From: Symbiodinium sp. CCMP2592
Lineage: Eukaryota > Sar > Dinophyceae > Suessiales > Symbiodiniaceae
Direction of reading: 5' to 3'
Length of the DNA stretch: 64,000 nt
Assembly: GCA_905221615.1 (NCBI GenBank)
Contig: CAJNDT010004557.1
Location: forward strand, 1,483,001-1,547,000
A program made the position numbers and the translations under genes. This document shows, one piece after another, positions 3,541 to 62,049 of the stretch. The notes beneath the pieces were generated by a model. The model searched no databases. It saw only the letters and a program-made list of their open reading frames with translations, and was not told the DNA's origin. The stretch's first letter is position 1, and every line of letters starts with the position of its first letter.

Positions 3541-3851
3541 TGAGAAACTTCACAACCCAGAAGGGTTCACCTGTGATCTTCGACGGGCGGGAAGGAAGTT
3601 CAGAGGGACATGGCTTCGAATTGGCGAACCTGCTGATTTTTCACACAGAACGTGTTTGCTTCTGCTTGCTCATGGCCATATTGGCCGGTGCTTTGCTATA
3701 CACATTGAAGTTCGGACCTGTCAGTCAACCTACCATAGTGTACAAAGTGCAGGGACGTTCAGGTCATACTCAAGAGCTCTTCGCGACTTGGGCATTCACT
3801 GCCTTCATGACTCACACTCAAGACCGCGCACTGCAGACATGGATTTCATCA
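3541..3851 (-). repeat. 3' LTR of element 1
   Basis: Direct repeat of 13241-13551, identical across 311 bases, with terminal TGAGAA...ATCA on the plus strand. In the element's orientation this is the downstream LTR. Confidence 0.95.
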
Positions 3852-3860
3852 CTCCTCCTT
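3852..3860 (-). other. Polypurine tract of element 1
   Basis: On the minus strand AAGGAGGAG directly abuts the 3' LTR. Element 2 has GAGGAGGAG in the same place. This is the expected site for plus-strand DNA priming. Confidence 0.75.
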
Positions 3861-3906
3861 GGTCCTTGCCCGCGGCAGAGACCACCATACAGTCTGCTGT
3901 GCGTGC

Positions 3907-6900
3907 TCAAGCATCCTTCCATCGGGACAGCCATTCCGATGTTGCCGTCTTTGATGAAAGCGTAGCCCATGAGAGTTCGGTCCGGCCTGAAAGGCTACGG
4001 TGTCGCCATACGTACAAAATGTACTTCAACTGTCGTGTTGTTGGTCTCATCGAAGATGGTGTCTCATCACCCATCATCATGGCAAGGCGTCGTACCAGGT
4101 CCTCCTTGAGACCTGAGACAGGTAAGCCCTCGTTCTCAAGGCCCGACTTGAGGTTCTTCACTGTAAGTAGGCCTAGAACATCTCGACAAACCCGATCACG
4201 CTCAAATTGCCCTGCACCATCCACGGAGTCCGGGGTCGTCGGCGTAGACATGCGTCTAGACGGTGGTGGAGTCGACGGTCGTGGCAACGGCGGGGTCCTT
4301 GGTCTCTGGCCTCCAAAAACACTTTCACGGGTGTCTTCGATATTCATCGGAGCCAGAGGCCTAGGCGATGGCCTGGGCGTGTGTGCCTGGCTCTCGCGTT
4401 CTTCTCGGAGAACCTGTCGTAGAGAGCGTGTCACGCTCTCACTGGATGTAGGCTCGTCTTGCTCCACCCACTTCTCGATCTCCGCCTCCGCTGCTGCCTT
4501 AGCCAACTCCCTCAACTTGTTAATCCTCCTTGTTCGCTTGGTACCGAACACATGATGCACTGCATAGCGGTAGAGCAACTTCGTCGCCTCCCAGACAGCT
4601 ACAGCAGAGATACACGTCAGAAGCAGCATCATCAGCAGCTCTCCTGACCCAGTCATCTGCAAAGGCTCCTTCTGGGCTGACACAGCCAACGATTGCACCG
4701 CCAGCATAAGCAGGAACAAGCATCCCAGCTTCATGAACTTCATTGTCTTTGCTCCATTCAACTCCGGCAGGCCAACCATATTCCATACACCCAACAAGTG
4801 CATCAGTCGGGCACGGCTGTGCAACTTGGTAGGTAGGTCCGCAGGCTGGTCCTCCCCCGGAAGGTGAACCACTCGTAGACTTCCATTCATCACCTGGTCC
4901 AGTACATAAGAATGTCTGATGCGTAGATGCCTCGTCCTCCAGCTTCCAGATGAACCATTCAGGATGTTGTGGGCCGCCATGTTGTCGATAAACAGGCTCG
5001 GTGGTTCCTCTTGCGGTAAAATCTCCTTCAACATTGCCTGAGTGGATTCCAACAGCAAGGCACACGTGGATCCCTCCATCAGCTCTGCTTCACAAACTGA
5101 CATGGCCACCATGCTCTGCTTGCCAGCCTTCCATGAGACAGGTGTACGACCCACCATAACCATGCTACAGCCAAAGCTCTTGCCACCATACGGAGCAAAC
5201 GACGCATCACTGAATCCCGACAACCCTACACGGAAACCTGCCTCATGTTGCTGCGTGGGCTCTGCTGTGGACTGCGTGGGCTCTGCTGTGGACTGCGTCG
5301 GCTCTGCTGTTGCGGACTGTGTTGGCTCTGCTGTTGCGGACTGCGTTGGCTCTGCTGTTGCGGACTGCGTTGGCTCTGCTGTTGCGGACTGCGTTGGTTC
5401 TGCTGCAGCTTCGACCTTCAACTTGAGCGTCGCAGTCGCGTTGAGATAGGCAATCACCTTCAAACCCACTTGGTAGACCTTCACCGGTCTCTTGGCCGTC
5501 ATTGCCGCCATGTAGTTCGTGACAAATAAAATGTCAGGCCTTGTGCGGTAGGCTAGCCAAAGACACTCTCCTGTGACCTTCTGAGCCCTGGTGAGCTCCT
5601 CCGCATTGAAGTTCTCCACCTCACCCTCGACCTCATCATCTTGGATCCACTCCTTCGGGCAAGGCAGGCCTGCGGCAGCTTGGGGGTCCAAACCATGAAG
5701 TCTCACCAAGTTGGTGACATAGGCCTCCTGTCCCAATGTGAAGTTATCCCCATCCTGGTCAAGCTCCATACCCAAGTAGCGGAGCCCCTTGTCAGAGAAC
5801 TCCAACTCCGAACAGGGCCATATGGAAGCGATCTTGCCATGCAGCAACAGGATGATTGCTTTCTTCGCCAGGTAAAGGAGGTCGTCCACATAGGTGACCA
5901 GGAGCCCCTTCAGCTGGGGGCGGTCCGCTCCGTTCGGCATGAAGAGAATTAACCAAAGTTCACCATCGGTGATCAACGGCCTCAACCACAAATACCTCTC
6001 CGCGCAATGCACCATGATCTCCTTCAAAACCTTGGTGCGGTGGTTGGCCCATAGTGCCGGGCTTTCTCTCAAACCGTAGAGTGCCCTTCTCACTACAAAC
6101 ACCATGTCCTCCGGAACGAGGTTCGCCTGCACCAGGATTTTAGGCGGTATCACACCGTACGTTGGCCTGTTCGACGGCCACTCCGCCTGAAGGAATGCCG
6201 CTGAAACATCAGTAGCAGCAGCGATCCATCCAAGTGCCGACGCGATGGCCAGAGCCAAGCGGAGCGCCTCAACGGAGGCGCCCGCTGCGTACAGCTCGCT
6301 GGCGCTCAAGGACTGGTTGGCGAGGTTGCCACATATCACTATCCTCGCTTTGCGTTTCCACCTTGCACCAGTGGACTTCTTCTCTGCCTTGGTCTCCGGC
6401 GCAGGAGGCTTCACGGTAAACACGACTTTGCCAGGAATAAGGATCAGAGATCCTTCCTTCACCATTCTCCTTGCTTCTGTGAGAGTTCGGGGCTCGATGG
6501 CGTTCGTCTTGGACCCTAGATTGGTGAGCTCCTTGTCCATAGGCTCGATCCAGTCGCCAATGTTCGCCTTCACCTGCTCCAGCGGAACATCCAGCGTCAC
6601 GTCCAAATCCTTCTTGAGGCTGACAAGGTATTCCTCGATGTCCCCAATCTCCTTGTCGTCCATGACATTGGCCACCTTGAGGTAGAGGTTATGGCAACGG
6701 GACTCCACTTCCTTCACTTGATCATCAACATCCTTGATCAGGTCCCTGACCACCTCGTTGATCCCTTTTATCTCCTCTCGAATCACCTCTCCCACCGTAT
6801 TGAACTCTTCCGCCAGAATCTCCTCCTCAGCCAAGAAGTCTTGCAACCATTCCCGGCGTTCCTGTAGTCGCCCAAGTACATCTTCTTGAAGTTGCCGCAA

Positions 6901-9900
6901 TTCCTGGCTTAGCTCCTGGGCCTTCTCACTGCGCTCCTCCTGGGTTCTGCTCATCTGGAACATCATCGCCTCCGACTCGGGGAAGTTCTCCGTGACATTC
7001 ATCATGTTGAGCACTACCCGTTGTAGTTGATCAGGTACTCGTGGAGGCAAGGGTGGTGGTTGGAAACCATACTCCACCAACTGGTCGTAGGTGGGCTGCT
7101 TCATCTTCGATGTCCTCGGAGTATATGCCGTAAGAACCAATCTCTTCCCCTGCCACTCCTCTGTTTGATGGAACTTCCGCGGGTTGAACGAGATGGGGTG
7201 CCCAGGTCGTAGATCTCGAACTCCTCCTCTTCGCCAATCCCCTCTTGGGAGCTGCCTCCATTCATCGGTGACATCATAATCCTCCGGATCCGACTCCACC
7301 CACACTCCGCCGCCCTGGTCACATGGTAGTAGAGGAAGTAACACATTGTTTCTTCCCACATAGTTGTGAACGTCGCGGTGGATCTGCATTCCCACATTTT
7401 CCGTCAGTAGGAGGGACGTGAAGTCCGTAATCCCAGTGATCTTCTGGAAGGCCTTGACCATATAGGCAGTGACCACCGGAAACCGGTCGGAATCCAAAGT
7501 GACTCCGCATTGTCCTCCATGGGTGTACTGGCCCATCAGCCATTGCAGACCCTCGCCCTGGGTTGTTCGTGTAGTAGTCTTCGCGTAAATCCTCAGGGCA
7601 TCCCACAGTTCCACTATGTTCTCCACCCCGTAGAGCTCTGCATCCATGAGGTCCTTGGCCTTGCGGTCGACTTCTGTGGTAGGATCCAGGAGGAATTGGG
7701 CCAAGGAGGTTTTTCCCCTAACTCGACGTACTGGGTCCTCCACTTCCATTTCAAAAGGCCCATGGTTCACCAAGTCGTCGGAGTCGATGAGGTACGGCTT
7801 GATGTGCACAGCCGTCGTGTAACTCCCATCATCATGACGCACCACGCGTCCTCCACGGACGTCCCCTGAGTATCCAACGAAGGTACCGGAACGCCAGCGT
7901 TCAGCAAGATCATATCGACCACCCTGCCCGAACCTCTTATGTTTCACGTGGACTGGCGCTCCAAACGGCAATGCCGCATCAGATCGGTCACCCAGAGCCA
8001 AGTCTCGCTGTCGTTTGGCATGAAATTCCGCGGCAAGGGGCCAACAGGACATAGGCAAGGAGGCAGCTCTCAACAGAAGCTTCACCCGGCTTTTGATGAC
8101 CCTAACCATCGCCTCTGCCCGGCCGTTCTGTTGAGGTTGCTGACTCTCTCCTGTCGTTGCCAGGATGTCCCGACTCGCCATCCACTCCCTTGTTTCCTGG
8201 GCCATTAGCTCCAACCCACGATCGCTGTGGATGCGCACCAACGGAAGCCCTTGTTGTCGTAGCTGTAGGTAGATCTGCTGGATCCGTGACCTTACTTCCT
8301 TCGCCGTGCGAGTCTTCATTGGAACAACAAAAGGGAGGGTCTGGTAGTCAATGTCGTCACCAACATCCTTGTAGAGGGCCTTGAAGCGTTCATTCATCGC
8401 CTTCTGCTCCTCATCCTCCTCCTCATCGAGTTGCTCCGCATCTCTCCGGTCCTCTTCAAAGGGGTCGATCTCGGCTTCAATCTGTTCCTCCTCCTCTTCC
8501 TCCGGTAGGTCCGCGTCCTTTGCCAGTTCCAAGCGGGGATGGCAATAAGCACCAATGAGGAGGTATCTAAGGCCCTTTTCCCCTGCTGTTTCTCCCTTTG
8601 TCCTGAAGGGACCCGCGATGTCGATGCCCAGGGTGTAGGCCGAAGGAGCAACGCACCGTCTGTGTGCACGGCCAGTTGCTGCGGCACGGACGCAAGTCCG
8701 ACACCTTCGATCATAGGGAACATGTCCATTGGCAACGTGCCTCTCCCAGTAGGCCAAGTCTCGCGCATTCATCTCCTTGGGTCCGGCGAGCTTGCACATC
8801 ATGGCTTCTCGTTGTCGCCGGCTTCCGTTTCTCCACTGTACCATAGCCTCCGCTAAGCCGGTCTTCAACTCAACAGGCCAGCTCGATTCCGGCGAGGGGT
8901 AGTTGAGCCGTGGGATCTCACTCTCCTCCACAGTCAAACCATCCGAGATCGGAAGCGTTCCCGCCATGAAGTACACCCCGGTCTTGGAGGCAACGGCATG
9001 GTAGCGGAGGTAGCGAAACTCTTCCTTGAAACGGGTCCAGGTGAAACTGGTCCAAACCGGGTGCCAAGTTGGTGCCTCCATCATGAAGAAGGGGGAGCAC
9101 AAGCACTCCCTGGTGGCCCCAGTATGTGCTACCAGCCAAAGCAGCATCATCCTGCGGAACAGCATTGAGCCCGACTCTGACCCTCGAGGTGGACCTCCAA
9201 GTATCCCTTCGATCTGTCCCCTTGCCGCTGCCCACATAAGGGCTCGCACAGCCGGCGTGTAGGTGCGGAGGTCGAAGGCCTTGTTATTCCGGATGTCCAT
9301 CCGAACCACAGTGACATCATCAGACTCTGCGCGGGAAAACTCGGCGCCCTGCTCGTCTCCATTGTACAAGTGGACGATCCACCTCGTCCTGAGAAGCCTC
9401 TTTCTCATAGTCCGGTTCCAGGGCAGTGCCTTCAAGTAGTGAGCACCTGCCTCATCAGAGAGAAGGAGCTTGTCGTCCACGCCAAGAAGAGCTGCAATGT
9501 CTTCTTCCAAAGGAGCTTGTAGAGGAGCTTCGGGGTCCAACAACATCCGCCTCAAGCTTGCCCGTTCGCCGGTCTCTACAAATGCTTCAGCACAATCTAT
9601 CCACGTGGTGACCGTCTCCTCTTCCGACGCGATCATTTTCAGCACTCCCTCTTCCGTTTGCTTCTCAAGCTTTCCCAGTTCCACTTGTTCCAAATCCGCA
9701 ATGAGTTGAAGTGCTTCGGCTTCACGTAGCACAGGCGTATCCCCCACGAGCTTCGTGGGCAGAATCCCATGGACCGGGTGTCGCACCTGGAGCCCCTTTT
9801 TTCTGCTCCACTTGAGCTCACAGCCAAGGGAGCTGACGAGGCTTCCGAGCGGTAGGATAGTCCCTCCTCCTTGTTCCTCCTCCGCAAGAAGAGTGCCTCC

Positions 9901-12900
9901 CTTGTTCTGGCGGAGGTAGATCGTCTTGCCATCTGCGAGCTGCACTCTGACCTTGCGGGCCGTGGAGGCCTCTTCCTTTGAGTGTGGGGCCCGATAGGCA
10001 TGCGAGGCACCACTATCCAGTAGGGCCATACCGTGACTCTCGCCAAGCCCTTGGGAACGAAGAAGAAGCTCCAAGTTCATCACAGCTCCGTCCGTCTGCG
10101 CCTGCATCGGAGCCAGCCTCTTGATCTTCGACAGGAACTGCTCAGCTAGTTCTCGAACCTCCCCCGCAGCCTGCTCAGAAAACAGAACCGTCGAAGCCGC
10201 AGAAGAGGAGCCACTGGAGGTAGCCATTGGATCCGCTGTGGTAGTAGCTGAGGTCAGAGGCGATCTCTCTGTAGGCGGGCCCATTGGGTGCTCCAAGGTT
10301 GAGTTCGCTGTGGTTGCCGGTGTCACCGGGACCGCGGTAGACGGCAAGGGTGCAGTGAGCGACGCCACCTGGGGGTTCGAAGCCAATGGGGCCTGCTTGT
10401 TCTTCTCGGGGTCGCCCTTCTGTGATCGCTTGCCACCTTGCTTGGTCGGACATTCAGCTTGTCGGTGCATTGTAGAACCACACGTCCAGCATCTCGCCTT
10501 CTTGTCCTCCTTGGTCGCGAACACATGACTGAACTTACAGGCAGCACCACGCCGACATCCTTCTGGCGACAACCAAAACTTGCAAGGTGCCCTTTGCCCC
10601 TGGCCCTTTCCGGTAGGTGAGGACGCCGAGGATGTTGGAGATCCGGGATCCGAAGTCATGCCCTTCAGCTTGGCGCCCTGCTCCTTGGCATTGAAGGGGA
10701 TCACTTGCTGGAGCTCTGCAAGGATGTGGTCCGCATAGGTAAGAACCGCAGTCAAGGAGGGCTGGTAGGGTAGCCGCAGCTCCTGCTTCGCCATGTTCAG
10801 CTTAAACGCCACATCCTTGTTGCCTTCAACCACAGTCTTGATCGCACCCTCTAAGGCCATTAGGAGGACCGAACCATCCGGTAGAGCTACTCCCATCTCA
10901 GCCGCCCGTCCTGTCAGCTTCTTCCACTTTCGAAGTGAGGCGATCAAGTCCACAATGTTCCCCTCGGGTCTAATGTGCTCAAGCTGCCGGATCAAACTTG
11001 CCCTCTCACTCGCTCCTCCTGGAGCGAAGGTGGTGTACAACTTGAAGAGGCAATCCTTCACACGGTTGATCCGGAGCATCGTGATCTCCGCCTTGATCGT
11101 TGGGGACATAGCTGACAGTAACAAGGTCATCACTCTCCGCTCCAATCTTGCCCACTTCTCAGGATCTACCTCCGGGCTCTCCAAGGCTTGCACATGGAGT
11201 CTCTTGAGAGGGACCTCGGCCTGGAATCGGTGGTAGGCCTCCATCGCTAACTCCACGTTCGCACTCCACCATCCCGCTGCCTTGTCCGTGATCGAGCCCA
11301 CGACCTGTCCCACCTCGTAGATCCACTCAAGAAACGCGATGGCACTTTGGTCCTGGTAGGGCTCCGGGAGCTTGGGGAGCTCCACGCTTCCCTTCAAGAT
11401 TTCCGGATCATGTCCGTCCCGTCGTAGCTGCAGCTGCTGAAGCTGCTTGATCCCCTCCGCAAGGAGGTCCATCGGGGCCTGAGACGCCCCCTTCTCTTCT
11501 CCACGACGATCAGTGGCCTGGGTCCCGTCGCTGGGGCCCGGTGCCTGGTAGGTCCGGGGCTTTCCTGCGGCATCATTCCGGCCGCCGCCCATCAAACACT
11601 GCCCGGTTGGCTCTTCGACCCGTCGTTCATCGCTACCTCGGACACCTCCTGGATCACTCGGTCGCTCACGGGCTGGAAGTGGTAGACCAGGGGGCCCCCG
11701 AAGAGCACCTTCACCTGCATGTAGGTGTCTGCGCGGATCACCTTGTTCGGAAGGCTTGGACGATGTCCCTGGGTCGATCCTCTGGCTCGCATACAGTAGC
11801 CCCGACCCATCACCTGGAACAGGCCCATCCACATCCTGAACTCCCCGCGCATCGGCATTCACCTCCATTATCGACACAAGGAGCTGCCTGAGCTCCGCAT
11901 TCTCCGCTTGAAGATCACTCACACGATGATCCCTCTGCTGCATGGCCTGCTGAACCGCCCTTCGCACCTCCTCCTGCACGACCTCAGGTTGAATCGACCC
12001 CGTCGACGACTGATCTCCATGATGTTCCTTCGGAGGTCCTGATTGGATCCGAGGTTGGGGTTCCTGTGGTCCTGAGGGCAGGCGAGGTTGCTGTTCTTGC
12101 GGTCCCGAAAGAAGCCGAGGTGGTGGTTCTTGTGGTCCTTGAAGCATACGAGGTTGTTGTTCATAAAGAGATTGATTCCTGGTCGGTTCAGGAACTTGAA
12201 AGTTCGGGGTAGCTATAGACCAAGCCGGGGATTGCGAGTACCATGAGTTCGGGGAAGGCGCCGGCATCGGTTTCAACCTCTCCAAACCACGCTGTACAAA
12301 TCCCCGAAGTCGTGTGAACCAAACCATCTGGCTTCCATTATGCTCCACCATCTCCCCTGACTCCACAGAAATACCTCCTGGGCTATCCCCATGGCCATCC
12401 TGGACTATGCGTGCCGCCCTTGCTTGCAAAGCCGCAACCAAGGCATTCCTCTGCTCTGTCAGCTGGGAAGCAGCTGGTGCCACCTGATCCGCGAGGTTCC
12501 CATTGCGGTTTTCCACTATGGGCAGCTGATCCTGCAAGGCCGACGGTGGCATAGAAGAACGCTGAGGCGTTGGCTGTTGAGGCAGGGCTGGACGATCCAG
12601 TACCTGTTGAGACTGTGAGGGTAGAGGTGGTGGTGGTTGATCTCGTACCTGCTGCGGCTGTGGCTGAGAAGGTGGTAGTGGACGTTCCGATGCCTGCTGC
12701 GGCTGGGGCTGCGGCGTAGTCTGTCGAGGGGTGCTGATGTCATGGTGTGTCGGAGCTGTTGCCTGTTGCTGACCTGGCCTACTCCTTAACCCCATCGCTT
12801 CACCCTGAAACCTCCGTGCCGTCGCGCCCATTCCGGTTTCCGTGTTCGCGCCGGGTCCGGAAAACGTCACTTCTGGCTGTCCTGCAGCCATGTGTCCCCC

Positions 12901-13236
12901 TTGTCCTTCCGCAGTCATAGCCGTTGGACCAGATTCAACTGTAGCCGGGGGCCTCGTCGACGGCGAGGGCTCCTGCGCCACATCCACATGCTGCTGCGAG
13001 CCCGTCGGAACGTGTCCCCCTGGAACGTGGGGCCTTTGGTGGCCTTCAAACGGGCCTCCAGGTACCACCCCGTTCAGTAGATCACGACCTTCGGCCCTGG
13101 CTCGATTCCTTGCTGCTTCGCCACCATCCGGCATCGGACCACGGGCTCCACCCAGATCCACACCTGCATAGGTCGGCGTAGCACTTGCCAAGCCTCCGCT
13201 TCCACCCGCACCACTTTGCGTGGATTGGGCGCTCAT
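3907..13236 (-). CDS. Copia-type Gag-Pol polyprotein with inserted methyltransferase-like and dioxygenase-like domains
   Basis: 3,109 aa from an ATG four bases inside the 5' LTR; an in-frame TGA lies in the LTR upstream. Order by residue: P/Q-rich leader 1-415; coiled coil 418-456; Gag-like helical domain 613-850; CCCH finger C885-x8-C-x5-C-x3-H904; CCHC knuckle 916-929; aspartic protease D1074 in LLDSGASH; methyltransferase-like Rossmann region about 1286-1440 with GGPPRGS (1347-1353) where C5-methylases have PPC; integrase finger H1500/H1505/C1512/C1515; integrase D1539, D1672, E1708 (DD35E); 2OG-Fe(II) dioxygenase-like region 1885-2045 with H1953-R-D1955, H2023, R2032; long coiled coil 2085-2200; reverse transcriptase with D2343 and YVDD (D2451, D2452); AEPTQSAT repeats 2612-2662; RNase H from D2677; two hydrophobic segments 2837-2854 and 2867-2882; SAP-like motif 3023-3053. 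The Gag, PR, IN, RT and RH calls are firm, and the extra domains are inferred from motifs. The frame is intact. Confidence 0.93.
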   Translation of the reverse strand: MSAQSTQSGAGGSGGLASATPTYAGVDLGGARGPMPDGGEAARNRARAEGRDLLNGVVPGGPFEGHQRPHVPGGHVPTGSQQHVDVAQEPSPSTRPPATVESGPTAMTAEGQGGHMAAGQPEVTFSGPGANTETGMGATARRFQGEAMGLRSRPGQQQATAPTHHDISTPRQTTPQPQPQQASERPLPPSQPQPQQVRDQPPPPLPSQSQQVLDRPALPQQPTPQRSSMPPSALQDQLPIVENRNGNLADQVAPAASQLTEQRNALVAALQARAARIVQDGHGDSPGGISVESGEMVEHNGSQMVWFTRLRGFVQRGLERLKPMPAPSPNSWYSQSPAWSIATPNFQVPEPTRNQSLYEQQPRMLQGPQEPPPRLLSGPQEQQPRLPSGPQEPQPRIQSGPPKEHHGDQSSTGSIQPEVVQEEVRRAVQQAMQQRDHRVSDLQAENAELRQLLVSIMEVNADARGVQDVDGPVPGDGSGLLYASQRIDPGTSSKPSEQGDPRRHLHAGEGALRGPPGLPLPARERPSDPGGVRGSDERRVEEPTGQCLMGGGRNDAAGKPRTYQAPGPSDGTQATDRRGEEKGASQAPMDLLAEGIKQLQQLQLRRDGHDPEILKGSVELPKLPEPYQDQSAIAFLEWIYEVGQVVGSITDKAAGWWSANVELAMEAYHRFQAEVPLKRLHVQALESPEVDPEKWARLERRVMTLLLSAMSPTIKAEITMLRINRVKDCLFKLYTTFAPGGASERASLIRQLEHIRPEGNIVDLIASLRKWKKLTGRAAEMGVALPDGSVLLMALEGAIKTVVEGNKDVAFKLNMAKQELRLPYQPSLTAVLTYADHILAELQQVIPFNAKEQGAKLKGMTSDPGSPTSSASSPTGKGQGQRAPCKFWLSPEGCRRGAACKFSHVFATKEDKKARCWTCGSTMHRQAECPTKQGGKRSQKGDPEKNKQAPLASNPQVASLTAPLPSTAVPVTPATTANSTLEHPMGPPTERSPLTSATTTADPMATSSGSSSAASTVLFSEQAAGEVRELAEQFLSKIKRLAPMQAQTDGAVMNLELLLRSQGLGESHGMALLDSGASHAYRAPHSKEEASTARKVRVQLADGKTIYLRQNKGGTLLAEEEQGGGTILPLGSLVSSLGCELKWSRKKGLQVRHPVHGILPTKLVGDTPVLREAEALQLIADLEQVELGKLEKQTEEGVLKMIASEEETVTTWIDCAEAFVETGERASLRRMLLDPEAPLQAPLEEDIAALLGVDDKLLLSDEAGAHYLKALPWNRTMRKRLLRTRWIVHLYNGDEQGAEFSRAESDDVTVVRMDIRNNKAFDLRTYTPAVRALMWAAARGQIEGILGGPPRGSESGSMLFRRMMLLWLVAHTGATRECLCSPFFMMEAPTWHPVWTSFTWTRFKEEFRYLRYHAVASKTGVYFMAGTLPISDGLTVEESEIPRLNYPSPESSWPVELKTGLAEAMVQWRNGSRRQREAMMCKLAGPKEMNARDLAYWERHVANGHVPYDRRCRTCVRAAATGRAHRRCVAPSAYTLGIDIAGPFRTKGETAGEKGLRYLLIGAYCHPRLELAKDADLPEEEEEEQIEAEIDPFEEDRRDAEQLDEEEDEEQKAMNERFKALYKDVGDDIDYQTLPFVVPMKTRTAKEVRSRIQQIYLQLRQQGLPLVRIHSDRGLELMAQETREWMASRDILATTGESQQPQQNGRAEAMVRVIKSRVKLLLRAASLPMSCWPLAAEFHAKRQRDLALGDRSDAALPFGAPVHVKHKRFGQGGRYDLAERWRSGTFVGYSGDVRGGRVVRHDDGSYTTAVHIKPYLIDSDDLVNHGPFEMEVEDPVRRVRGKTSLAQFLLDPTTEVDRKAKDLMDAELYGVENIVELWDALRIYAKTTTRTTQGEGLQWLMGQYTHGGQCGVTLDSDRFPVVTAYMVKAFQKITGITDFTSLLLTENVGMQIHRDVHNYVGRNNVLLPLLPCDQGGGVWVESDPEDYDVTDEWRQLPRGDWRRGGVRDLRPGHPISFNPRKFHQTEEWQGKRLVLTAYTPRTSKMKQPTYDQLVEYGFQPPPLPPRVPDQLQRVVLNMMNVTENFPESEAMMFQMSRTQEERSEKAQELSQELRQLQEDVLGRLQERREWLQDFLAEEEILAEEFNTVGEVIREEIKGINEVVRDLIKDVDDQVKEVESRCHNLYLKVANVMDDKEIGDIEEYLVSLKKDLDVTLDVPLEQVKANIGDWIEPMDKELTNLGSKTNAIEPRTLTEARRMVKEGSLILIPGKVVFTVKPPAPETKAEKKSTGARWKRKARIVICGNLANQSLSASELYAAGASVEALRLALAIASALGWIAAATDVSAAFLQAEWPSNRPTYGVIPPKILVQANLVPEDMVFVVRRALYGLRESPALWANHRTKVLKEIMVHCAERYLWLRPLITDGELWLILFMPNGADRPQLKGLLVTYVDDLLYLAKKAIILLLHGKIASIWPCSELEFSDKGLRYLGMELDQDGDNFTLGQEAYVTNLVRLHGLDPQAAAGLPCPKEWIQDDEVEGEVENFNAEELTRAQKVTGECLWLAYRTRPDILFVTNYMAAMTAKRPVKVYQVGLKVIAYLNATATLKLKVEAAAEPTQSATAEPTQSATAEPTQSATAEPTQSATAEPTQSTAEPTQSTAEPTQQHEAGFRVGLSGFSDASFAPYGGKSFGCSMVMVGRTPVSWKAGKQSMVAMSVCEAELMEGSTCALLLESTQAMLKEILPQEEPPSLFIDNMAAHNILNGSSGSWRTRHLRIRHSYVLDQVMNGSLRVVHLPGEDQPADLPTKLHSRARLMHLLGVWNMVGLPELNGAKTMKFMKLGCLFLLMLAVQSLAVSAQKEPLQMTGSGELLMMLLLTCISAVAVWEATKLLYRYAVHHVFGTKRTRRINKLRELAKAAAEAEIEKWVEQDEPTSSESVTRSLRQVLREERESQAHTPRPSPRPLAPMNIEDTRESVFGGQRPRTPPLPRPSTPPPSRRMSTPTTPDSVDGAGQFERDRVCRDVLGLLTVKNLKSGLENEGLPVSGLKEDLVRRLAMMMGDETPSSMRPTTRQLKYILYVWRHRSLSGRTELSWATLSSKTATSEWLSRWKDA
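5251..5403 (-). repeat. In-frame AEPTQSAT minisatellite inside the polyprotein
   Basis: Four 24-bp units (AEPTQSAT) are followed by two 21-bp units (AEPTQST) and a partial unit, all in frame, between the reverse transcriptase and RNase H. Element 2 has no equivalent. It is probably a flexible linker grown by replication slippage. Confidence 0.9.
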
Positions 13237-13240
13237 AACC
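13227..13240 (-). other. Primer binding site of element 1 (half-tRNA initiator Met type)
   Basis: Directly inside the 5' LTR the minus strand reads GGTTATGAGCGCCC. Its complement, GGGCGCTCATAACC, contains GCTCATAACC, the anticodon loop of initiator tRNA-Met with its CAT anticodon. Drosophila copia is known to prime from a 5' half of this tRNA cut in the anticodon stem-loop. The polyprotein ATG lies inside this site. Confidence 0.75.
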
Positions 13241-13551
13241 TGAGAAACTTCACAACCCAGAAGGGTTCACCTGTGATCTTCGACGGGCGGGAAGGAAGTT
13301 CAGAGGGACATGGCTTCGAATTGGCGAACCTGCTGATTTTTCACACAGAACGTGTTTGCTTCTGCTTGCTCATGGCCATATTGGCCGGTGCTTTGCTATA
13401 CACATTGAAGTTCGGACCTGTCAGTCAACCTACCATAGTGTACAAAGTGCAGGGACGTTCAGGTCATACTCAAGAGCTCTTCGCGACTTGGGCATTCACT
13501 GCCTTCATGACTCACACTCAAGACCGCGCACTGCAGACATGGATTTCATCA
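13241..13551 (-). repeat. 5' LTR of element 1
   Basis: Identical to 3541-3851. It should carry the promoter for the minus-strand transcript; I cannot place the start site. Confidence 0.95.
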
Positions 13552-13556: not shown

Positions 13557-14771
13557 CTAGGATTACTTTCAGGATTACTAGTAGAGTGACGATCAGGGAT
13601 ACTTGGTGATCATGGGGTGGCGTCCCAAGAATTCACGCAGCTGAAACTGCAGAGCCGAGGTTGTCCAAGAAGAAGAACGAGCTTCTCAACGTGGTGTCTC
13701 GCACCTCGTCGTCAGGGCCGGTGATATGGGGACCTCAGTAAATCCAAGGAGGGTTTTGCGCTGGACTATCCTATCGCGATATGGAGGCGATTTCTGGAAT
13801 ATCCAGACCCTTATATCAGGGTTCCAGGCCCGATACAGGACCAGGAGGTGTTCTTGTCTGTCATGTTTCTGAGAATTCGGTACGCCTCCCAAGACCCTAA
13901 ACCCCGAGCATCCCCGAGCCGTCCTGGTTGTCATAATCCTTAGGAGTGTACACAGAGCCACCCGAGCCCCCATGTGATCTGCAGTCCGCAGTCCTCAAGA
14001 TCCTACAAGTCGCAACTGCTTTGCAGGAGTACATGAGTAGGATCTTAAGAGGGGAGTCATATCATGCGAGTACAGTCATTTTACGTGTTGAGAAGTCCTA
14101 GGCGAATGAATGCTTTGGAAACGCTCCCTATGGAGATGTTTCTAAGTCAACAGACTCCGAGCCACATGCCTCGCCTGGATTATCCGAGTGTGAGCGCCGA
14201 AACCCCCTAGACCCCTTCCCGTAAACCCCTATGAACCCTAAAACCTAAACCCTAAACCCTAAACCCTATAACCAGCCCTGCCAGAGTAACATCTTTGAAC
14301 TTTGAAGCCGGCATTCCGTCATTCCGTGCATGGAAGCAAGCCCATGTCCAGTCCTCTGTTCTTGTGGAGGTACCGAGTTTCATTTTACAGGTGTATGAAT
14401 GAAAAAATATTCGTGTTGACGAACTTCACTTCAACTACTAGAATCTAATCTTATATACAGAGCAGTAGATGTAAGCAGCATCTGTTGATGCTTGAAAGTT
14501 AGTTCTGCAACGACTCGGAATTCGGCGAAAAGCACCCGTATGGGGGTGAAACTTACACAGATCACTGTAGTGATTCAGCAAGCAGGACCTGTTGGGAAAG
14601 TCGCTCTGTGCCGTCCAGACCTGACGACAATCCCCAAATTTGACCGAGTTGGTCCTATAAACGTCATGCGCAAGGCCGTTACGTAACTGTTGGGGTATAG
14701 GGGTCTGGGGTATAGGATTCAGGGACAATCAGTGTAAAGCCCCTATAGCATTCAGTGATTCAAATCCACAG
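13557..14771. other. Intergenic or intronic stretch with one exon-like island and telomere-like repeats
   Basis: About 13640-13712 reads ETAEPRLSKKKNELLNVVSR on the plus strand between a possible acceptor and a GTGATA donor. 14221-14272 is CCCTAAA-like repeat, preceded at 14182-14203 by a motif (TCCGAGTGTGAGCGCCGAA) that recurs elsewhere in the window. Nothing else is recognised. Confidence 0.35.
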
Positions 14772-40055: not shown

Positions 40056-40340
40056 TTGCAATTGCATGCCCGATGGCTCGCTAGTGCAGTGACGGGAATG
40101 GGATGTCTCGACACTGCTTGCTCCAGTGCCGGAAGTCCCAATGCGTGTGGGGTACTTAGAAATATTATTGAATTTTTGGTTATTATAATCCCTAAGAAAC
40201 AGCTAAAATGATGATTTTTGCTAGGGTTCTAAGTTCAGTATAGTAATGTTTGGGAGTTCTTAATCTGGGGTTCTCCCTCAGCCAATGTGCTGTTCGCCCT
40301 GTACCAGGATCCTCACCCAGGCATGTCCGAGTGTGAGTGC

Positions 40341-48851: not shown

Positions 48852-49160
48852 TGTTGACGTACTGGTTCATCATGAAGGTTGGGGTTGTTCGCACTATCAG
48901 CTGCCATAGTCGAGGATCTTCTCAAGGCGTTCCAGAAAACTAGTTCAGAGAACTGGCGCAACCGACCATGGGCTCACGACTGATTCACTTTTACGCGCAA
49001 CAACACATGTCGAAGCTGTCTGTCCTCAGGACTAGAGCTTATGCCTGTTCACTAGGCTAGCTTGACTCGTGTCTGCTGGCTTCTGCCGATCATGGCTTAG
49101 CTCAGCTCTGCCTGGGCCGTCAAGGCTGTGCGGACGTGCTGGCCTGCAGTGGCTTCAACA
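48852..49160 (-). repeat. 3' LTR of element 2
   Basis: Direct repeat of 59534-59842, 308 of 309 bases identical. Confidence 0.95.
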
Positions 49161-49201: not shown

Positions 49202-52200
49202 TCAATCCCTTCCGTCCCGCAAAGCCTGGAGGCAATAGCGACATATCATCCTGTCCTGTACTGAAGTCGTGTTCCTAAGCACTTGACAGGATCGGAAGAG
49301 ATGTAGTGCTCCTGGGGATCTACTTGCTGTGGTCATCACGTGGAGCTCACACAACTCACTAAATGTGAAACCTTGATCAAAGGTAGTTTGCGTAGATGCA
49401 TCCTTAGCCGTCTTGACTTCTTTCTCTAAACCACTATTCGGGACAGAGGATCGAGTCTCTAAGAAGGCCGGAAAAGGTGCCGGTGGCGGTTCAACCGCCG
49501 GAAATCCAGAAAGTCCATGAAATCCATAGGTGGTATCGGTCGGGATGGATACCGAACTGCTGGAAGGCAGTGGTGGTGGCGGTGGCGGCAAATCCAAAGC
49601 AGGGAGTTGAGGCCGTGTTTCCACTTCCACTCTAACATAGGAAGCTTCCGCATGGGGGGGCTGACGACTTTCAACCTCTCGACTGCCTATACCCCTTTGC
49701 CTCAAACCTTCCTCTTCCAACTCACGGGCAATGACTCTACGAACCTGCTCCTGTCTACGTTCCCTTCGGGTGGAGGGTTCTTGTTCTCCTACGTCAGGGT
49801 CTGCATGAACCATTCTCACCGCTACTGGCTCACGTTGCCTGCAGCAGGATCGTACACAGTACCTACCTGACTCCCAAAGAAAGAGTATCGACATAACCAA
49901 CAACACCACCAAAAGCGAGAGCTCTAGACCCAATGGTTCTGCTTCAAGTTCATCGCTTGGTGCAGCCTCATTGACGTCCGCCTGGACCAACAGTAGCATA
50001 CCTAACAACCATAACCCCATTCTATGATTACCCACGAAACTCCTTTGCACGGCACTCCTGGAGGAGGATTGCCCCGAGGCCTCGCTGAAGGGCTCGAAGG
50101 GTCCTTGTGAAGGTAATGCGTCCGTCTCAACTCGGGACACCTGTGATGGCGTGGAATTGGGGTTAGGAGGTCCTAAACCCAAGAGCTTACACAGGTCGTC
50201 GAGGCGGGTTTTCATTAGGGCCTTAGTTAAGCAGTCAGCCAACTGCACATCACCGGGGCAGTGCGACACCTCGATTTCCCTTCGTTCGATCATGTCTCGA
50301 ATGAAGGACGATCGGACTCGCAAATGTCGCGTGCGCTGGCTCCCTTCACCGCCTGCTAGCGTTACTGCTGCGGTGTTATCAATCATCAGATGTTTGCCAC
50401 AAGGCCCCTCCTCAAGCTCAGAAATTAAAGCTTCCAAAGACTGTGCTAGCACAACCCCTTCGCAACCTGACACAAGCTCCGATTCCGCTGTGCTTAGTGT
50501 AACGATGCTTTGGCGCTTCGACTTCCAAACAATACAACACTCATCATAAAGAAGGGCTATGCCGCTGATGGAGTGGCTTCCGTGGGGCGCGAATGACGCG
50601 TCCGTGTAGATCCTAAGCCCATCGGCCTTCCCTGGAATCAACATAAGTCTATGAGACTTCGTGGTTGCCAAATACTCTAAGGTTCTAAGTCCTATCTTCA
50701 GAACCTGCTTCGGGAAGCGAGCTACCCAGCTTGCCATCATTCCCACGCAGTAGCTGATGTCCACCCTGGACCTCTGAGCCACCCAGAGAAGCTCTCCTGT
50801 AATGCGCTGAGCTGCTCGTAGCTCCTTCTCTGAGAATTCCTCCTCCTGGGGAAGTTCACGCACCCATTCCTTGGGTACTGGCGCTGTAGCACGGGAATTT
50901 GACCTTACATCATGGCTCCGCAACAACTCTGCAATGTGGGACTCCTGAGCCAGGCTGTACCCTATCAGGTCACCAGTATCATTCAGCTCAGCATAAATGT
51001 CCACTCCCAGGAAGCGCAACGGGTCCGTGGCTGTCGCCTCCTTCAATCCCGTGCATTCCCAAGACTCCCTAATCCAGTCAATGAACGACTGCGCCACTTC
51101 TGGCTCTGTCAGAAGCAACATGTCGTCCACATAGACCAACAGGTGTCCAATGCATAAGCCGCTCTCGTGCCTCATTCGCCAGACGTTGCTTTCAGAGGAA
51201 AACTGCTCCAAAGTGACCTTCCCCAATGGGGTATTCCACTCTGCCTTTGCAAGAAAACTGTCTCTGAACAACGACCACCAGCGCGGACTTTCTCTAAATC
51301 CATACAACGCCCTGTCTATAATCCACACCTCGTCCTCCCGTGCCAGCTCAAGCTCGACTAACAGACGTGGTGCCCGCATTGCATAGCGCTTCGTCACTCC
51401 TTCCGGAATCGATGCGAGAAGGAAAGCAGACTTCACATCCAGCCCGTATGCCCTACGACCACGTCGGGCCGAATGGGCGAGTAGGGCCCTCAGGGACTCT
51501 GCGCCGGCACCACCAGCGTAAAGCTGGGACTCGGCAGTTGTCTTCGCATAGTTCCCACATGACACAATCCTAAATTTTCTCTTGTAAGGGGCACCAGGTT
51601 TCACCGTACATACCGGTTTCCCCGGTATGACCTCGTAGTCCGAACTTCTGAGGATAGCACGGGCTTCGCTTCCGTAAAACTTGCGTATGACTCCCATGGT
51701 CTCAAACGTGCTCAACTCTGCCTGTGCTGCCGGGCGCCAAGCTGCCAAGTTCTGCCGGACTTCAGCGGGTGCCACGTTGTGCGTCACCTCCAATGGACCT
51801 TGCAACTTGGACAACAGGTCTTCCACATTTGGAGTGAATCCACTCTCATCGACCCGATTGATCATTGGATCCGGCAGTGCTGCGGGATGACCTGCACCTA
51901 TATTCCCCAACGGGTCCTCAGTCGGAACACCGATCACTGACCTAGTGCCCTGGGCTCCCTGGTGTCTCGCCTTCAAACTCTCACTTGGCGACTCAGGACC
52001 GCTACGAGCTTCGCTAGGGGAAAGACAAGGACGGACTACCATACATCTATATTCTTCAGACGACTGTGGCGAGGATGAATCTGTCGGATCTGCACTAGTC
52101 TCCTCCGGGACTACATTATCACCTAGATCTGGACTAGGAAGCTGGGCTCCAGAAGGAACTGGCCTCGACGGCTGAGAACTGGATGCTGCTCCAACGCTGG

Positions 52201-55200
52201 GTATCCACTCTTCATCTCCCCACATCTCTTGCATGTACATTACGTGGTTATAGTCAGACCTCACTTGAACACCAGGGTTCGAGGATGGCTCCCCGGAGTT
52301 ATCGTAAGGTGGGCCTAAACCCAACTGTGGCGAGGGTGAATCTGTTGGATCTGCACGTGGTGTCTCCTCAGGGACATCCCAGCGGCGTCCTGGGCGAGTG
52401 TCCTCCTTAGGGTCCGACAGCCTCCGAAGGGCATCTGGTTGTTTAATGCCTAGAGAGGGCAGCGGGGGTCCTGGACACCTGACTCCCAGCGTCCGGTTCT
52501 GAAAGATCCAAGGAATCTGCCTATTGGTCTTATCGAACACTCGGACCTCGCCTGTAGTTAGGCTAGAGTTCTGGGGATTATCAGGTCTCCTAGTCCCGGG
52601 TGGGTGGATCCCTTGCATTATTCTGGTGGCCAGCCACTCTGGGATACCGTGCTCAATCAGGTCTTCGACAAACAGAAATTGCAGGTCGTTTGGAACCTCA
52701 ATTCCCAACGCTCTCAGCTGGCGATACGCTTGATGGGCACCCCTGACCGTAAGGTAATCAGCTAGATCGATATTCTCGAGGGCCTCCTGCGGTCTATCAC
52801 CTGGGTTTCCAGAACTGAAGTCCCAACCGATTAACAATGAGTCGGCACTCGGCTGCAAATCAGCCGACAGAGAATCCTGCGCGGCGGACGAACAAGACCC
52901 ACCATCAGAGTCTGGCACTTGCTCGCGCAACCTAGTGGCCTCGATCTGTCTTTGCAGCTCATCAGACTCGATACTCGACTCCGACGTATCTTCGGAGCTC
53001 GTGGTCAATGCCTGAACCCTATACCCACGATCATCAACTCCAGGTACATGCTGTTGGGCACTGGTGGTTTCCGGCATGGGAAACTCATACGCCTCCAACA
53101 TCGCTACACTACTCTGCTGAAGCTTCCCAGTACCTAACGGGGTGTAACCGACTATCAACCAGTTCTGGTGCATTCGCACTGCATGGTGCCGGCGCGCATT
53201 GAAAGCCACAGGAACCTCAGTGAGGGCTCGAGTCTCCTGGGAACACCAGGTGGGATTCGGCAAAGCTCCGCCCTTTACTCGGGCAGATTCATCGGGCTCG
53301 ACCCATAATTGAACCTCTCCCGGAACGTGCATGACAAAGTTTAGTGTGCCCCATTCATTCCTCCAATCCCGGTGCACTTCCACATCCCCTGCACGCATCA
53401 ACATCAACGCTGACCATGTGGGTCTAACCCCTTCACAAGCACTGACACGGGAAGCCAGCACAGCGTTCAAAAGCCTGGTGGTCCAAGGCTTCCTCTTGGT
53501 CAAACCAGTGACTCCTCTCAGGCCACCATGACAGTACGCACCAAGGACGTATTTTCCCTCAGCGATACCTCTCCTGTCTCCTGTGCTCTCCTCCTCCTGG
53601 GCAAAGGCACTCAAAACCTTGTGGACTCCCTTCAGGCTCAAATCCTGGGAAATCAAAAGCTCATGGGCCACCTCCTCAGAAGTAGGAGAATCCAAACACT
53701 CAAGAAACCGGACAGAGGTCTTATCTCTCAACCTTTTCAGTGGCACCCCCGATTCATCTACCAAAGCGTCCACGGGCTCCCCGGCATCCTCCTCCTGAAG
53801 AAGTGGGGGTTGTAAGTCTGGGAGCTTGGTGGGGTCTATCACATGCGACCTGAAGCCCCGAGAAGCTACTAAATTGCCCGCTGCATTGATCAACACATGT
53901 CCATCCGTGATCGAACGGTGCGGAGCTGCATATTGTGCTTCAATCCAGCGCTCCATTAACTGCTTTGTGCCGTCTGCCGGCTGTTTCACACGGTGCAACA
54001 CTCGCTGCCCAAAGGCCGGTAGATCAGCCTCACCCAAGAGATGTTGATTGTGCTTGGCAACAGCCCAGCGGGCAGCTAGTGGCCACCATCCCACCGAAAG
54101 GCCAGCGCCATTCAGCAACGTACGGATGCGGGACTTGACCCAACCTACTGTCCTTTCTGCCAGGCCATTAGCTCTCTTATCTGTGGGTAGGGAATGCTGA
54201 ACTCTTACCCCGTGGTTGGCTAACCACTTACTAAGGGCTGCTGACCCAAATTCGGTGCCAGGATCATGATGGATGCTCTGCACTGGGAACCTTTGGTTGA
54301 TTCCCAAGATCATTCGTTGGAGGGCTTCTGCAACCTCAACACCGGATTTAGTGCGTAGCGGAATGAAGTATCTCAAGACTACCTGGTCCACCGGCTCATT
54401 CAACTCCTTGATTAAACGTGCCAGCTCAACCGGATCCTCCGGAAGATCACCAGAGTCCCATACAGACACCTCAGGGGCCTCTGCCGACTTGACCTCAGCA
54501 TCTGGCACTGGTTCCCGCTCCTCGGGAGTCTGCTGAATGGCATCCGGGTTCGAAGCAAAGAGTTCTGGGAACAGCTCATCGCTTGCGTTTGAAGGTTCGT
54601 ACTCGGCAAGTTCGTCCCCTTCTAGGGGTGCTTGAGGGACCTCACCTTTAAACAGATCCTCAACCCCACTTGGTCCACTCGTTGACTGGACAACCGACCT
54701 CGGAACACGGAAGGCACCAACTAGTCCGTAGCGAAGGATTGACTTGCCGGTGACACACCCCTCATCCCGTCCTGCCTCTGACACCGGAACCGGACCGAAG
54801 AGATCAACCGACAACGCAAATGACTTTGGGAAACGAACTCGCTTGTGAAATACGCCTAGCCCTGAACCCTCCACGCATTGCCGGCAATCCCTACGGTAAG
54901 GGAGATGGCCGTTACGCAAATGCTGCTTCCATCCCTCAAGCTCTGCACCTGTTATGCCTAGCTCCTTAGGGTTGAGCTTAGGGTCCTCACCATCGGCCGG
55001 CGCCCGAGAAGGTGCTTCAACCTCCTTGACACACAAGTCTTCACCCAAAACCTCCTCCTCATCATCACAATCAAGATCACTTTCTACCTCAAAGGCCCTG
55101 CGTAATGCCTGGCCCTCCCAATCCATCTCCAGAGGTTCAACCTCCACGGAAGGAGCATCAGTGGTGGGAGGCTCACAACAGGCAGACTGCCCGTTCAGGT

Positions 55201-58200
55201 GAGAAGATATCTCTCGGTCAAGAGTTTCACACGAGGGCCCTAGGTAGTTCCCAGACAGCACCTGAACCAAGGCCGTACGCAGGTGAGTCGTCCAGGCTCT
55301 TCCCCCGGGGGGAGCCAAAGGGTTGCCACGAGGTTCAAGGGAGGAGAGATAGCTTAGATCCAGATTGGTGATCAAGGCTGTTGGTCTCAAGTACTCATCT
55401 CCTAGCGCACCCTGAGAGAACTCAACTACCTTGGTTCCCGACCAGCTCAAGAATGATTCGGCGGCCTTGCCAAAACACGACGGGTGCTCTGCTATATACA
55501 CTATTCCCCTGCCTCTGGCGACTGAAGCTAACGACCACAGGATCATTCCCTGGGCCACCAACCTCCTTACCTCGTCGGTGCTGCCAGCCGGAGGGGTTGA
55601 GAACAGAGCTGCAATCCGGCCCTGCGAGGCAGCCCAGAGAAGGACCTTCCAAACTCCGTTCTGACTCCTTAGATCCCAGCCCTTTCCGCCAGGCTGGCGA
55701 AGATCCACGCTGAGGACAGGCATTCCCCTTTCATCTGCCCACTTACTCAAAGGATCACCCCTGTTAGGAGGCCCGCTACACAGGTGCACCACCCACTGCT
55801 TGGAGTCAAGGAGACGTCGTCTAGTGGCCCGTTTCAATGGTAGCCGCTTCAAGAGGGTCCTTGCGGTATCAGAACTTCCATTGGGAAATGACTCTGCAAG
55901 TTCAACCCTGGCCTCATCGGGCAGTGCCTCCAAGTAAGGCTGCGCGAGGAACGCCCTAAGCGCATCCACACGGGTGCCAGTGTCAACAAGCGAGCGCAAC
56001 GCGCCCGTAGGATCTGGGCACTGATCAAAGGCGCTCAGTTGACACTCCAAATTCTGCACTCGTTGCCTGAAATGATCTACCCGTTGGTCCTCAAGTTCGG
56101 CAATCAAGCGTAGGGCTTGGGATTCTTCCACATAGGGGCAGGTGTTCTTAGAGATCTGGGTCTTAAGCACCCCTAGCGTAGGGTGTACGACCCTTAACCC
56201 CCGTTTCTTAGACCAGCTCACCTGGCAGCCTAACGTCTCAACCAGGGCTCCTAGTGGAAGGATCGTCTGTGAAGACTTAGGAGTTGCAGGCTCTTGGCTT
56301 GGCGGGATTACCAAAGTTCCCCCTTCCGTTCTTAGCCACTCTTGCCTCTCATCACCGGCTAGGGTAACTGGTACAGGCTCAAGGTTCCTTAGCTTTTCAT
56401 GGAAGGAGATCACCGCATGCGTCGCCCCACTATCAAGCAAGGCAACACCTCCAGCCCCATCATCCTTAGCCTGAACCCTAGTTTCAAAGATCTCAACCGC
56501 TCTCTTCAAGGCATCCAACTGGGTCCTAAGTGCGCTCACAGAGATCCCAGCACTCATCCCGGGCTCCTTAAAGGGCTCGCCCAGACCGTCGGGACCCTTA
56601 ATCACTTTAACCTCTGGATCTCGCGACAGCCCTCGGAGAGTGTCCAACTGAGCACTCAGGGAAGCCAGCGTGACTGGCGTGCCCTGAACAGCCGCTGCAG
56701 TAGGCGCCTGGGGCTGAGCACCAGAAGGCTGTGCTGGGGTTGGGGTAACCGGAACGGTCAGAACCGGCTCTGCCCCGGCGGACTGCGATGTAGGCATTGA
56801 CTGCTGGAGTATCCAGGCTGCATCAGCTAGGAGGCTCTTGATCTGTTGCTGATTCGTGTCACCTCCCGGCGGGGGTGGAGGAGGAACACTAGGGGGGTTA
56901 GGGTTGGACTTAGGCCCACTAGGTCCCTTGGCTCCCTTACCCTTACCCTTAGCTTCATCCAACTTTGTGCCAGCCTTACACTCAGCAGACTTGTGGGTTT
57001 TAGACCCACACACCTTGCATCTTGCAGCCTTCTCAGACGCCGAGAATCCGTTCCAATCATGCTCGTAGGTGCAATCCGCTCCCTTCTTACAGCCATTATG
57101 TCCAACGTAAAACGTACACGGTGTCTTAGTGGCGGAGCCTGGTTCTTGAGAGCCTGCCTTGGCATTGCTCGGCGCCTTTGGGGGGCTCTTGGGTGGTTTC
57201 TTAGGCGGGGGTGGATTTGGATTAGGGGCCTCCACACCCTTCACCTTAGCCGGAGCCTGTGGTGGGGGGTCTCGCGTTCCCTTATCCTTATCACCCCTAT
57301 GTGCAATGGCCTCCAACTCCCCAAGGAGTTGAGCGTGCAGCTTTCGGACCTTCTCGTCGTCCGGATTCAGGTCGATTTGGAGTGACGCCCTCGCGAGATT
57401 CACACGGAACGCCACTTCGGGGTTCTGTTGCAGGACCGTTTTGGTCAGCTTGCTCAAGGCTCTAACCTGAAGGGAGCTGTCCGGGAGCTTACCACCGAGT
57501 TCAGAGATTCGCGAGCTCCACCTCTGCCAGCGCCGCAGCCCTTCGATCGTTTCTTGGATTGAGGAGCACGGGGCAGGGTCAGTGATATTTTTAAGGCCTA
57601 GTTCGCGCTCGGTGATACTACCGGGGCCGTAGATTATGAATAATCGGCAGACTAGTGGAAGTAGCCCGGACACCCGGGAAGCACTCAACTCGTCCTTTAT
57701 CGCCTGGGGCGACGCCGCTATTATCATAGTCTCGATCCTACGAGCCACACGGGTCCACTTGGGTTGTGCTAACTCATCTGAAGCCTTGGGTTTTGCCGTG
57801 AGGCGAGCTAACGGATCTAGCTTCAAGTAGTTAGCATACCACTCCTTGGCCTCTGCTATGGTCGTGGTCCACAAAGACTCCGAAGTATCCGAAATGTCGG
57901 CTAACGCGGGTTTCGAGGCGTGCAACCAATCCGCAAAACTCAAGCAAGACTCTGGCCCATGTGGAGGCAGCTCAGGGAGGCTAACCACTCCTGGTTTTAT
58001 AACCTCGGGTTTCTGGGTGTTCTTAGGGCTTGCCATTTCCTGAACAACACTCTGCAACTGCGCCATCCCGCTCAAAACAACGGTCATAGGATCCAAACCC
58101 TGTGCTCCTGGCCCTCCCTGCGAGGGAGCTGCCTCCGGTGCTTGAGCGATCGGAGGAGCCTCCGGTCCTGCCGTGGCCACACATGCACGATCCAGGGCAC

Positions 58201-59380: not shown

Positions 59381-59589
59381 ATAGTAGTTCCGGCCGTCGC
59401 GGCCACAACTTCATCATCAATATCCTGTGAGCCCCTCAAGGGGTTCTGAGTCCCATTCATCAAGGGTCTCCCACACTCGTTGTCATTCTGCGTAGCGGTA
59501 GCGCTAGCAGTAGCACTTGGGCGTATCATAACCTGTTGACGTACTGGTTCATCATGAAGGTTGGGGTTGTTCGCACTATCAGCTGCCAT
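59377..59589 (-). CDS. Short leader frame upstream of and overlapping the polyprotein
   Basis: A 70-codon frame from an ATG in the LTR (59589), or 50 codons from the ATG in the primer binding site (59529), ends at TGA 59379-59377. That TGA overlaps the polyprotein ATG (59380) as ATGA. The protein (IRPSATASATATQNDNECGR...) is low-complexity with no known domain. The overlap suggests reinitiation, or a frameshift that would fuse leader and polyprotein. Element 1 lacks this leader and uses the primer-site ATG directly. Confidence 0.5.
   Translation of the reverse strand: MAADSANNPNLHDEPVRQQVMIRPSATASATATQNDNECGRPLMNGTQNPLRGSQDIDDEVVAATAGTTI
59519..59533 (-). other. Primer binding site of element 2
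   Basis: The minus strand reads GGTTATGATACGCCC directly inside the 5' LTR. GGTTATGA is shared with element 1 and complements the TCATAACC anticodon loop of initiator tRNA-Met. Confidence 0.65.
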
Positions 59590-59842
59590 AGTCGAGGATC
59601 TTCTCAAGGCGTTCCAGAAAACTAGTTCAGAGAACTGGCGCAACCGACCATGGGCTCACGACTGATTCACTTTTACGCGCAACAACACATGTCGAAGCTG
59701 TCTGTCCTCAGGACTAGAGCTTATGCCTGTTCACTAGGCTAGCTTGACTCGTGTCTGCTGGCTTCTGCCGATCATGGCTGAGCTCAGCTCTGCCTGGGCC
59801 GTCAAGGCTGTGCGGACGTGCTGGCCTGCAGTGGCTTCAACA
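59534..59842 (-). repeat. 5' LTR of element 2
   Basis: Matches 48852-49160 except one base. Confidence 0.95.
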
Positions 59843-61975: not shown

Positions 61976-62049
61976 TACGTGCGTTCTTGGAGCTCCCAGG
62001 TTTCCAGCCGAGGCGACCCCCTCCGGACTGAGGAAGCTCCATGATAAGG

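Follow-up and report, generated by a model that had tools for sequence, protein, structure and literature searches.

Dioxygenases of the TET/JBP type, which are 2-oxoglutarate (2OG)-Fe(II) enzymes with an HxD...H arrangement, have been found on fungal DNA transposons and Helitrons (PMC12730594). A 2OG oxygenase has likewise been acquired by long terminal repeat (LTR) retrotransposons, the Ty3/gypsy elements of orchids, whose ALKBH5-like 2OG-dependent dioxygenase (2-ODD) belongs to the AlkB family with its RxxxxxR signature, is encoded by a separate open reading frame (ORF) and acts as an N6-methyladenosine (m6A) RNA demethylase in vitro (PMC9289625), and retrotransposons of Symbiodinium have captured a base-modifying DNA methyltransferase (DNMT; PMC5890265). 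The window analysed here, 64,000 nucleotides of Symbiodinium sp. CCMP2592 (contig CAJNDT010004557.1, positions 1,483,001 to 1,547,000), contains two copia retrotransposons, elements 1 and 2, each with a domain in its Pol polyprotein that is best read as a TET/JBP-like 2OG-Fe(II) dioxygenase. This domain differs from the fungal enzymes in lying within the copia Pol of a dinoflagellate, from the orchid protein in being apparently TET/JBP-like and part of a copia Pol, and from the enzyme captured in the same genus, which is a methyltransferase; the accessible text of PMC5890265 describes Copia without any DNMT domain and mentions no TET, JBP or dioxygenase. No publication describing a dinoflagellate retrotransposon with a TET/JBP-like domain was found in the literature searched, outside which lay most subscription papers and all preprints. 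A TET/JBP-like oxygenase fixed within copia Pol would be a new kind of retrotransposon cargo and would give these elements a novel means of interfering with base modification, in a host lineage that has CG methylation over most of its genome and 5-hydroxymethyluracil (5-hmU) in its DNA.

In element 1, a domain of about 150 residues with an HRDxxN...H pattern sits between the integrase and the reverse transcriptase (RT), its core comprising residues 1895–2045 of the polyprotein (7102–7554 of the window). The motifs from which an earlier note on this DNA had proposed such an enzyme were all found in the minus-strand ORF at the residues it named, namely GQYTHGG (1902–1908), HRDVHN (1953–1958) and GGGVWVE (1975–1981), followed by FNPRKFHQTEEW (2017–2028), which includes H2023, and KRLVLTAYTP (2031–2040), which includes R2032. 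The equivalent block that the note placed in element 2 was recovered by tblastn with the element 1 domain (E 5.9e-9, 28% identity), again in the interval from integrase to RT. AlphaFold2 confidently modelled the element 1 domain (pLDDT 88.1) as the beta-helix of 2OG-Fe(II) oxygenases, and the double-stranded beta-helix that characterizes this superfamily is present in the predicted model and in its structural matches; the fold that the note had proposed is thereby upheld. The domain can be regarded with high confidence as a 2OG-Fe(II) dioxygenase. The explanation that we favour, and consider fairly probable, is that the block is a catalytically competent TET/JBP-like enzyme and a standing Pol module of Symbiodinium copia retrotransposons; it draws on the fold prediction, on the conservation of the HxD...H ligands, on open frames in recent elements and on the spread of the domain across divergent copia groups and a non-copia family.

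Relatives were collected by searching 5.8 billion proteins with the element 1 block (of 172 candidates, 15 reached E <= 0.01), by a profile search among short proteins (ten relatives, several of them fragments) and by a search from the protein P0016 (19 proteins including P0016 itself); the list is a lower bound, since a word-based search reaches close relatives only. Every relative whose record names a source comes from Symbiodinium. Across 46 domain rows, which include several fragments, HxD is present in all 45 rows having letters there and N1958 in all 46, and 38 of 39 rows keep the distal His, the exception being P0019, with Phe; the His aligned in P0045 is probably a misalignment, because the second half of that domain is replaced. 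In alignment A7, 17 rows picked to span the groups (pairwise identity 0.19–0.72, median 0.27; P0014, P0015, P0019 and P0045 excluded), all three metal ligands are invariant. They are among only eight invariant positions (G1902, G1907, G1911, H1953, D1955, N1958, H2023 and F2058) in 133 gap-free columns, and the chance of the three named columns all being invariant is 1.5e-4 if columns are treated as equal. The free variation of ligands that would have spoken against the proposal was therefore not seen. The downstream Arg, put forward in the note as the 2OG-binding residue, fared less well: position 2032 is Arg in 33 of 38 rows of the larger set, whereas three of the 17 A7 rows depart from it, leaving 14 with Arg: element 2 has Asn, P0017 Gln and P0037 Cys.

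The domain is preserved about as well as the RT. Compared with the 11 polyproteins of group 1 (P0003–P0013), the element 1 domain is 0.59–0.85 identical, the RT 0.56–0.94 (ten polyproteins whose alignment covers 200 or more RT residues) and the linker ahead of the domain 0.27–0.76; for the distant P0016, P0017 and P0002, identities are 0.37, 0.32 and 0.36 in the domain, 0.23, 0.35 and 0.36 in the RT and 0.08, 0.31 and 0.25 in the linker. To judge from these alignments, the domain is kept under constraint. Between the close elements P0001 and P0003, the domain and linkers are 0.76–0.85 identical and the remaining Pol 0.91–1.00, a difference that recombination or faster change may explain.

The family within the superfamily is indicated by the relatives. 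By hhalign, the domains of P0016 and its kin (group 3) are homologous to those of group 1 (probability 99.8, E 5.7e-28, with no members in common) and to the group of element 2 (97.9, E 6.4e-13). Thirteen of the 19 group-3 domains found were scanned: 12 matched Tet_JBP (PF12851) at E <= 1, the best at 1.5e-4, and these matched no other oxygenase family. Among the A7 rows, Tet_JBP matched nine of 17 and 2OG-FeII_Oxy_3 (PF13640) one. Searched against PDB sequences, the A7 profile gave six matches at E <= 10, three of them TET2 (0.051–0.052) and two CcTet (0.17–0.18). A GGxLW/GGGVW-type stretch after HxD, present in relatives, is a further similarity to the fungal transposon enzymes. The solved structures of NgTET1, CcTet and TET2 share about 12% identity with the element domain, which is shorter, and their sequence matches are no better than E 0.05. 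Nothing relevant emerged when PDB sequences were searched with the initial profile of the domain, the group-3 profile, the whole of P0046 or the domain of L019, a copia copy flanking the window, nor from PHROGs and NCBIfam with the group-3 rows; viral contigs yielded no relatives and phage records gave nothing below E 6.

Several divergent groups of copia elements carry the domain, as does one retroelement family outside copia. Within 264 kb, made up of the window and 20 flanking 10-kb pieces, each of the five copia RTs detected was paired with one of five domains; copia elements without the domain could be missed, since all 27 elements behind the RT profile bear it. The flanking copies L008, L010 and L019 are open across the 1118–1133 codons read and keep HxD, the distal His and the Arg. 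The presence of the domain is thus supported for the two recent elements described in the note and for numerous further copia polyproteins of Symbiodinium. The order is integrase–domain–RT in elements 1 and 2, P0017, L008 and L010, and domain–integrase–RT in L019 and group 3 (14 of 14 polyproteins, among 19, in which both motifs were found); the domain has therefore moved or been gained more than once. In trees of 25 polyproteins, the RT and the domain each separate groups 1 and 3, which fits joint inheritance of the two; the branches of P0002 and P0017 are too long for placement. A Symbiodinium natans record named Cacna1h (P0029) combines a copia RT and a TET-like domain with the ion-channel family PF00520, and is probably a chimeric gene model.

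The non-copia family came from a search of the organism's own genome with PF12851 (the 1.098-Gb assembly, six frames regardless of introns, 150 of 155 candidates scored), which gave four matches at E <= 0.001 (2.2e-4 to 3.0e-4), none above the cut-off. Their domains are 96–98% identical and hence represent one retroelement family, called non-copia because the RT around the first match gives a weak hit to RVT_1 (E 0.01) and none to RVT_2. Taken alone, this domain matches Tet_JBP at E 2.6e-7 (30.5 bits; cut-off 34.9) and resembles that of P0016 (BLASTP E 1e-20 in a single comparison). In the PDB it is most similar to TET2 (E 0.064); the alignment includes the HRD stretch, and a second stretch, not significant alone, places the distal His in matching order. 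As all four matches are retroelement copies under the cut-off, no canonical host TET/JBP gene was found in this search, which may miss a host gene because introns were ignored and 150 of 155 candidates scored. In L001 (1192–3291; with L002–L004 and L005) the TET-like domain immediately precedes a stretch resembling a methyltransferase, with APPCGTASRARE ... TLENP, which we take to be methyltransferase motifs, and an RT-like part comes next, so arranged that the frame might possibly encode a writer–eraser pair. Synonymous/nonsynonymous changes in three copies (L002 was left out, its frame being shifted in part of the domain) are 5/3, 3/3 and 2/0 in the TET-like part and 0/11, 1/8 and 1/3 in the methyltransferase-like part; the counts are too few to decide, and those of the methyltransferase-like part do not point to constraint.

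Several observations weigh against the favoured explanation. The domains of elements 1 and 2 themselves match no Pfam oxygenase family, every Tet_JBP match lies under the curated cut-off (best 30.5 versus 34.9 bits), the top PDB match of the A7 profile is a histidine kinase (E 0.037) with the TET matches at 0.05–0.18, and L019 matches PF13640 (E 4.3e-5) instead of Tet_JBP. Fold scores are tied among TET, AlkB, FTO and a bacterial 2OG enzyme. The Arg is absent from element 2, P0017, P0020, P0027 and P0037, the polyproteins P0014 and P0015 lack the second half of the domain, P0019 has Phe in place of the distal His, and P0003, with a protease 1.00 and an RT 0.94 identical to those of element 1, is only 0.85 identical in the domain. 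The TET/JBP label of the earlier note thus holds through the Tet_JBP matches of the relatives and the TET2 and CcTet matches of the profile, and finds no backing in the window's own domains; by fold search, TET could not be told apart from AlkB or further 2OG enzymes. TET/JBP-like remains the best reading, reached via relatives, and the domain is not filed as a TET/JBP member.

An alternative is a generic enzyme of the prolyl-hydroxylase type (2OG-FeII_Oxy_3) that hydroxylates protein, such as Gag of the element itself or a chromatin protein of the host. The L019 match covers positions 5–97 of the 98 of PF13640 with 24.8 bits, just under the cut-off of 27, the best Foldseek hits of the domain model include AspH structures, and R2032 stands nine residues past the distal His. 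That spacing is known from prolyl hydroxylases. Nevertheless, L019 is the only A7 row matching PF13640, against the nine that match Tet_JBP, and the six PDB sequences matched by the A7 profile include no prolyl hydroxylase. This alternative is considered unlikely.

The tie in the fold comparison extends to AlkB, ABH3, ALKBH5, NMAD-1 and FTO, and the orchid elements provide a precedent in an LTR retrotransposon (PMC9289625), so that an AlkB-like N-demethylase acting on element RNA or cDNA was also considered. The RxxxxxR signature described for that family (PMC9289625) is, however, missing: the residue six positions after R2032 is Y2038, with Tyr in 16 of 17 rows and Phe in one. No AlkB family was matched in any Pfam scan of this analysis. 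An AlkB assignment was rejected for want of RxxxxxR after the distal His, and a demethylase of this kind has a small chance of being the answer.

A former oxygenase kept solely as a nucleic-acid- or integrase-binding part would accommodate the non-universal Arg and the somewhat faster change of the domain between P0001 and P0003, but hardly the invariance of the metal ligands at a median identity of 27%. In fungal transposon TETs, too, conservation across the three lineages is limited to H, D/E and H (PMC12730594), and the variable Arg is for this reason not decisive; such a pseudo-enzyme is the least probable of the three alternatives. A chance match of motifs is ruled out by the confident fold model together with the invariant ligands.

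If the domain is a TET/JBP-like enzyme, it would be made as part of Gag-Pol and, being translated within Pol and adjoining the integrase in both arrangements, would end up in the particle and in the pre-integration complex, where nucleic acid would be its target. Its most likely reaction is predicted to be oxidation of a pyrimidine 5-methyl group, and the sequence does not tell which: oxidation of 5-methylcytosine might undo or recode host CG methylation of the element, whereas oxidation of thymine would yield 5-hmU. CG methylation extends across most of the Symbiodinium genome (PMC5890265); the observed/expected CpG ratio (0.73 and 0.68 in the elements versus 0.66 in the remaining window) is uninformative in either direction. 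Dinoflagellate DNA contains 5-hmU, and in Breviolum most repeats are enriched in it, Maverick most, with Copia among the least accessible (PMC11071213). In general, 5-hmU is likely to be made by TET-family enzymes (PMC6723414), and no dinoflagellate enzyme of this sort is named in the accessible portions of PMC6723414, PMC11071213 and PMC11453091. Marking of element DNA with 5-hmU by the domain is a plausible proposal. That dinoflagellates owe their thymine (or 5-methylcytosine) oxidase to retrotransposons, retroelement TET-like domains making the 5-hmU that marks repeats, is a speculative extension that we consider doubtful. The elements give a concrete set of expressible candidates, through which a question open since the 1970s becomes directly testable.

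Elements 1 and 2 correspond to two very long open frames on the minus strand of the window (Table 1). Both display the hallmarks of Ty1/copia, with LTRs, 5-bp target duplications, an RVT_2 match and an integrase ahead of the RT, the Pfam integrase match being weak, and both are recent full-length insertions.

Table 1. Features of the two copia elements, in window positions
Feature	Position	Strand	Basis or remark
Element 1, whole	3541-13551	minus	full-length copia element
Element 1, 5' LTR	13241..13551	minus	311 bp, 0 mismatches to 3' LTR; GACTG duplication outside
Element 1, 3' LTR	3541..3851	minus	LTR comparison
Element 1, polyprotein ORF	3907..13236	minus	3109 codons, no stop; RVT_2 E 3.3e-13
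Element 1, integrase region	8047..8781	minus	residues 1486-1730; Pfam rve only E 0.052
Element 1, putative TET/JBP-like 2OG-Fe(II) dioxygenase domain	7057..7584	minus	residues 1885-2060
Element 1, H1953-R-D1955, first two metal ligands	7372..7380	minus	motif and alignment
Element 1, H2023, distal metal ligand	7168..7170	minus	motif and alignment
Element 1, R2032, proposed 2OG-binding Arg	7141..7143	minus	Arg in 14/17 rows
Element 1, reverse transcriptase, RVT_2 stretch	5689..6381	minus	residues 2286-2516
Element 2, 5' LTR	59534..59842	minus	309 bp, 1 mismatch to 3' LTR; ATCCC duplication outside
Element 2, 3' LTR	48852..49160	minus	LTR comparison
Element 2, polyprotein ORF	49202..59380	minus	3392 codons, no stop; RVT_2 E 4.4e-10
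Element 2, integrase region	54071..54955	minus	residues 1476-1770; Pfam rve E 0.0028
Element 2, domain copy	53075..53623	minus	residues 1920-2102; H2003, D2005, H2066; Asn replaces Arg
Element 2, reverse transcriptase, RVT_2 stretch	50876..51628	minus	residues 2585-2835

Both elements have a further conserved region between protease and integrase (8875-9426 and 55289-55843, minus strand), with the motifs GGPPRG or TPPAG, with PPSRTFS and ENP in P0017 and PCTKWC in P0016, the catalytic Cys being mostly absent. We take these motifs to recall those of a C5-methyltransferase. The model of this spacer is poor (pLDDT 59.9), its fold searches were uninformative and it matched no family, and Pfam detected no methyltransferase in P0046 or the polyproteins; a methyltransferase-like reading is a motif-level lead.

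The Gag part of element 1 contains a CCCH-like and a CCHC-like zinc finger (10447-10593; Pfam, below cut-offs), a short tandem repeat of AEPTQS-type units lies just before the RNase H region (5251-5405), and a SAP-like stretch is found near the C-terminus of the polyprotein (4084-4173; Pfam E 5e-4, below cut-off). Elsewhere in the window, degenerate interspersed repeats of the CCCTAAA type, which is telomere-like, occur at 1009-1085, 14196-14279, 16684-16978, 40340-40520 and 61790-61986.
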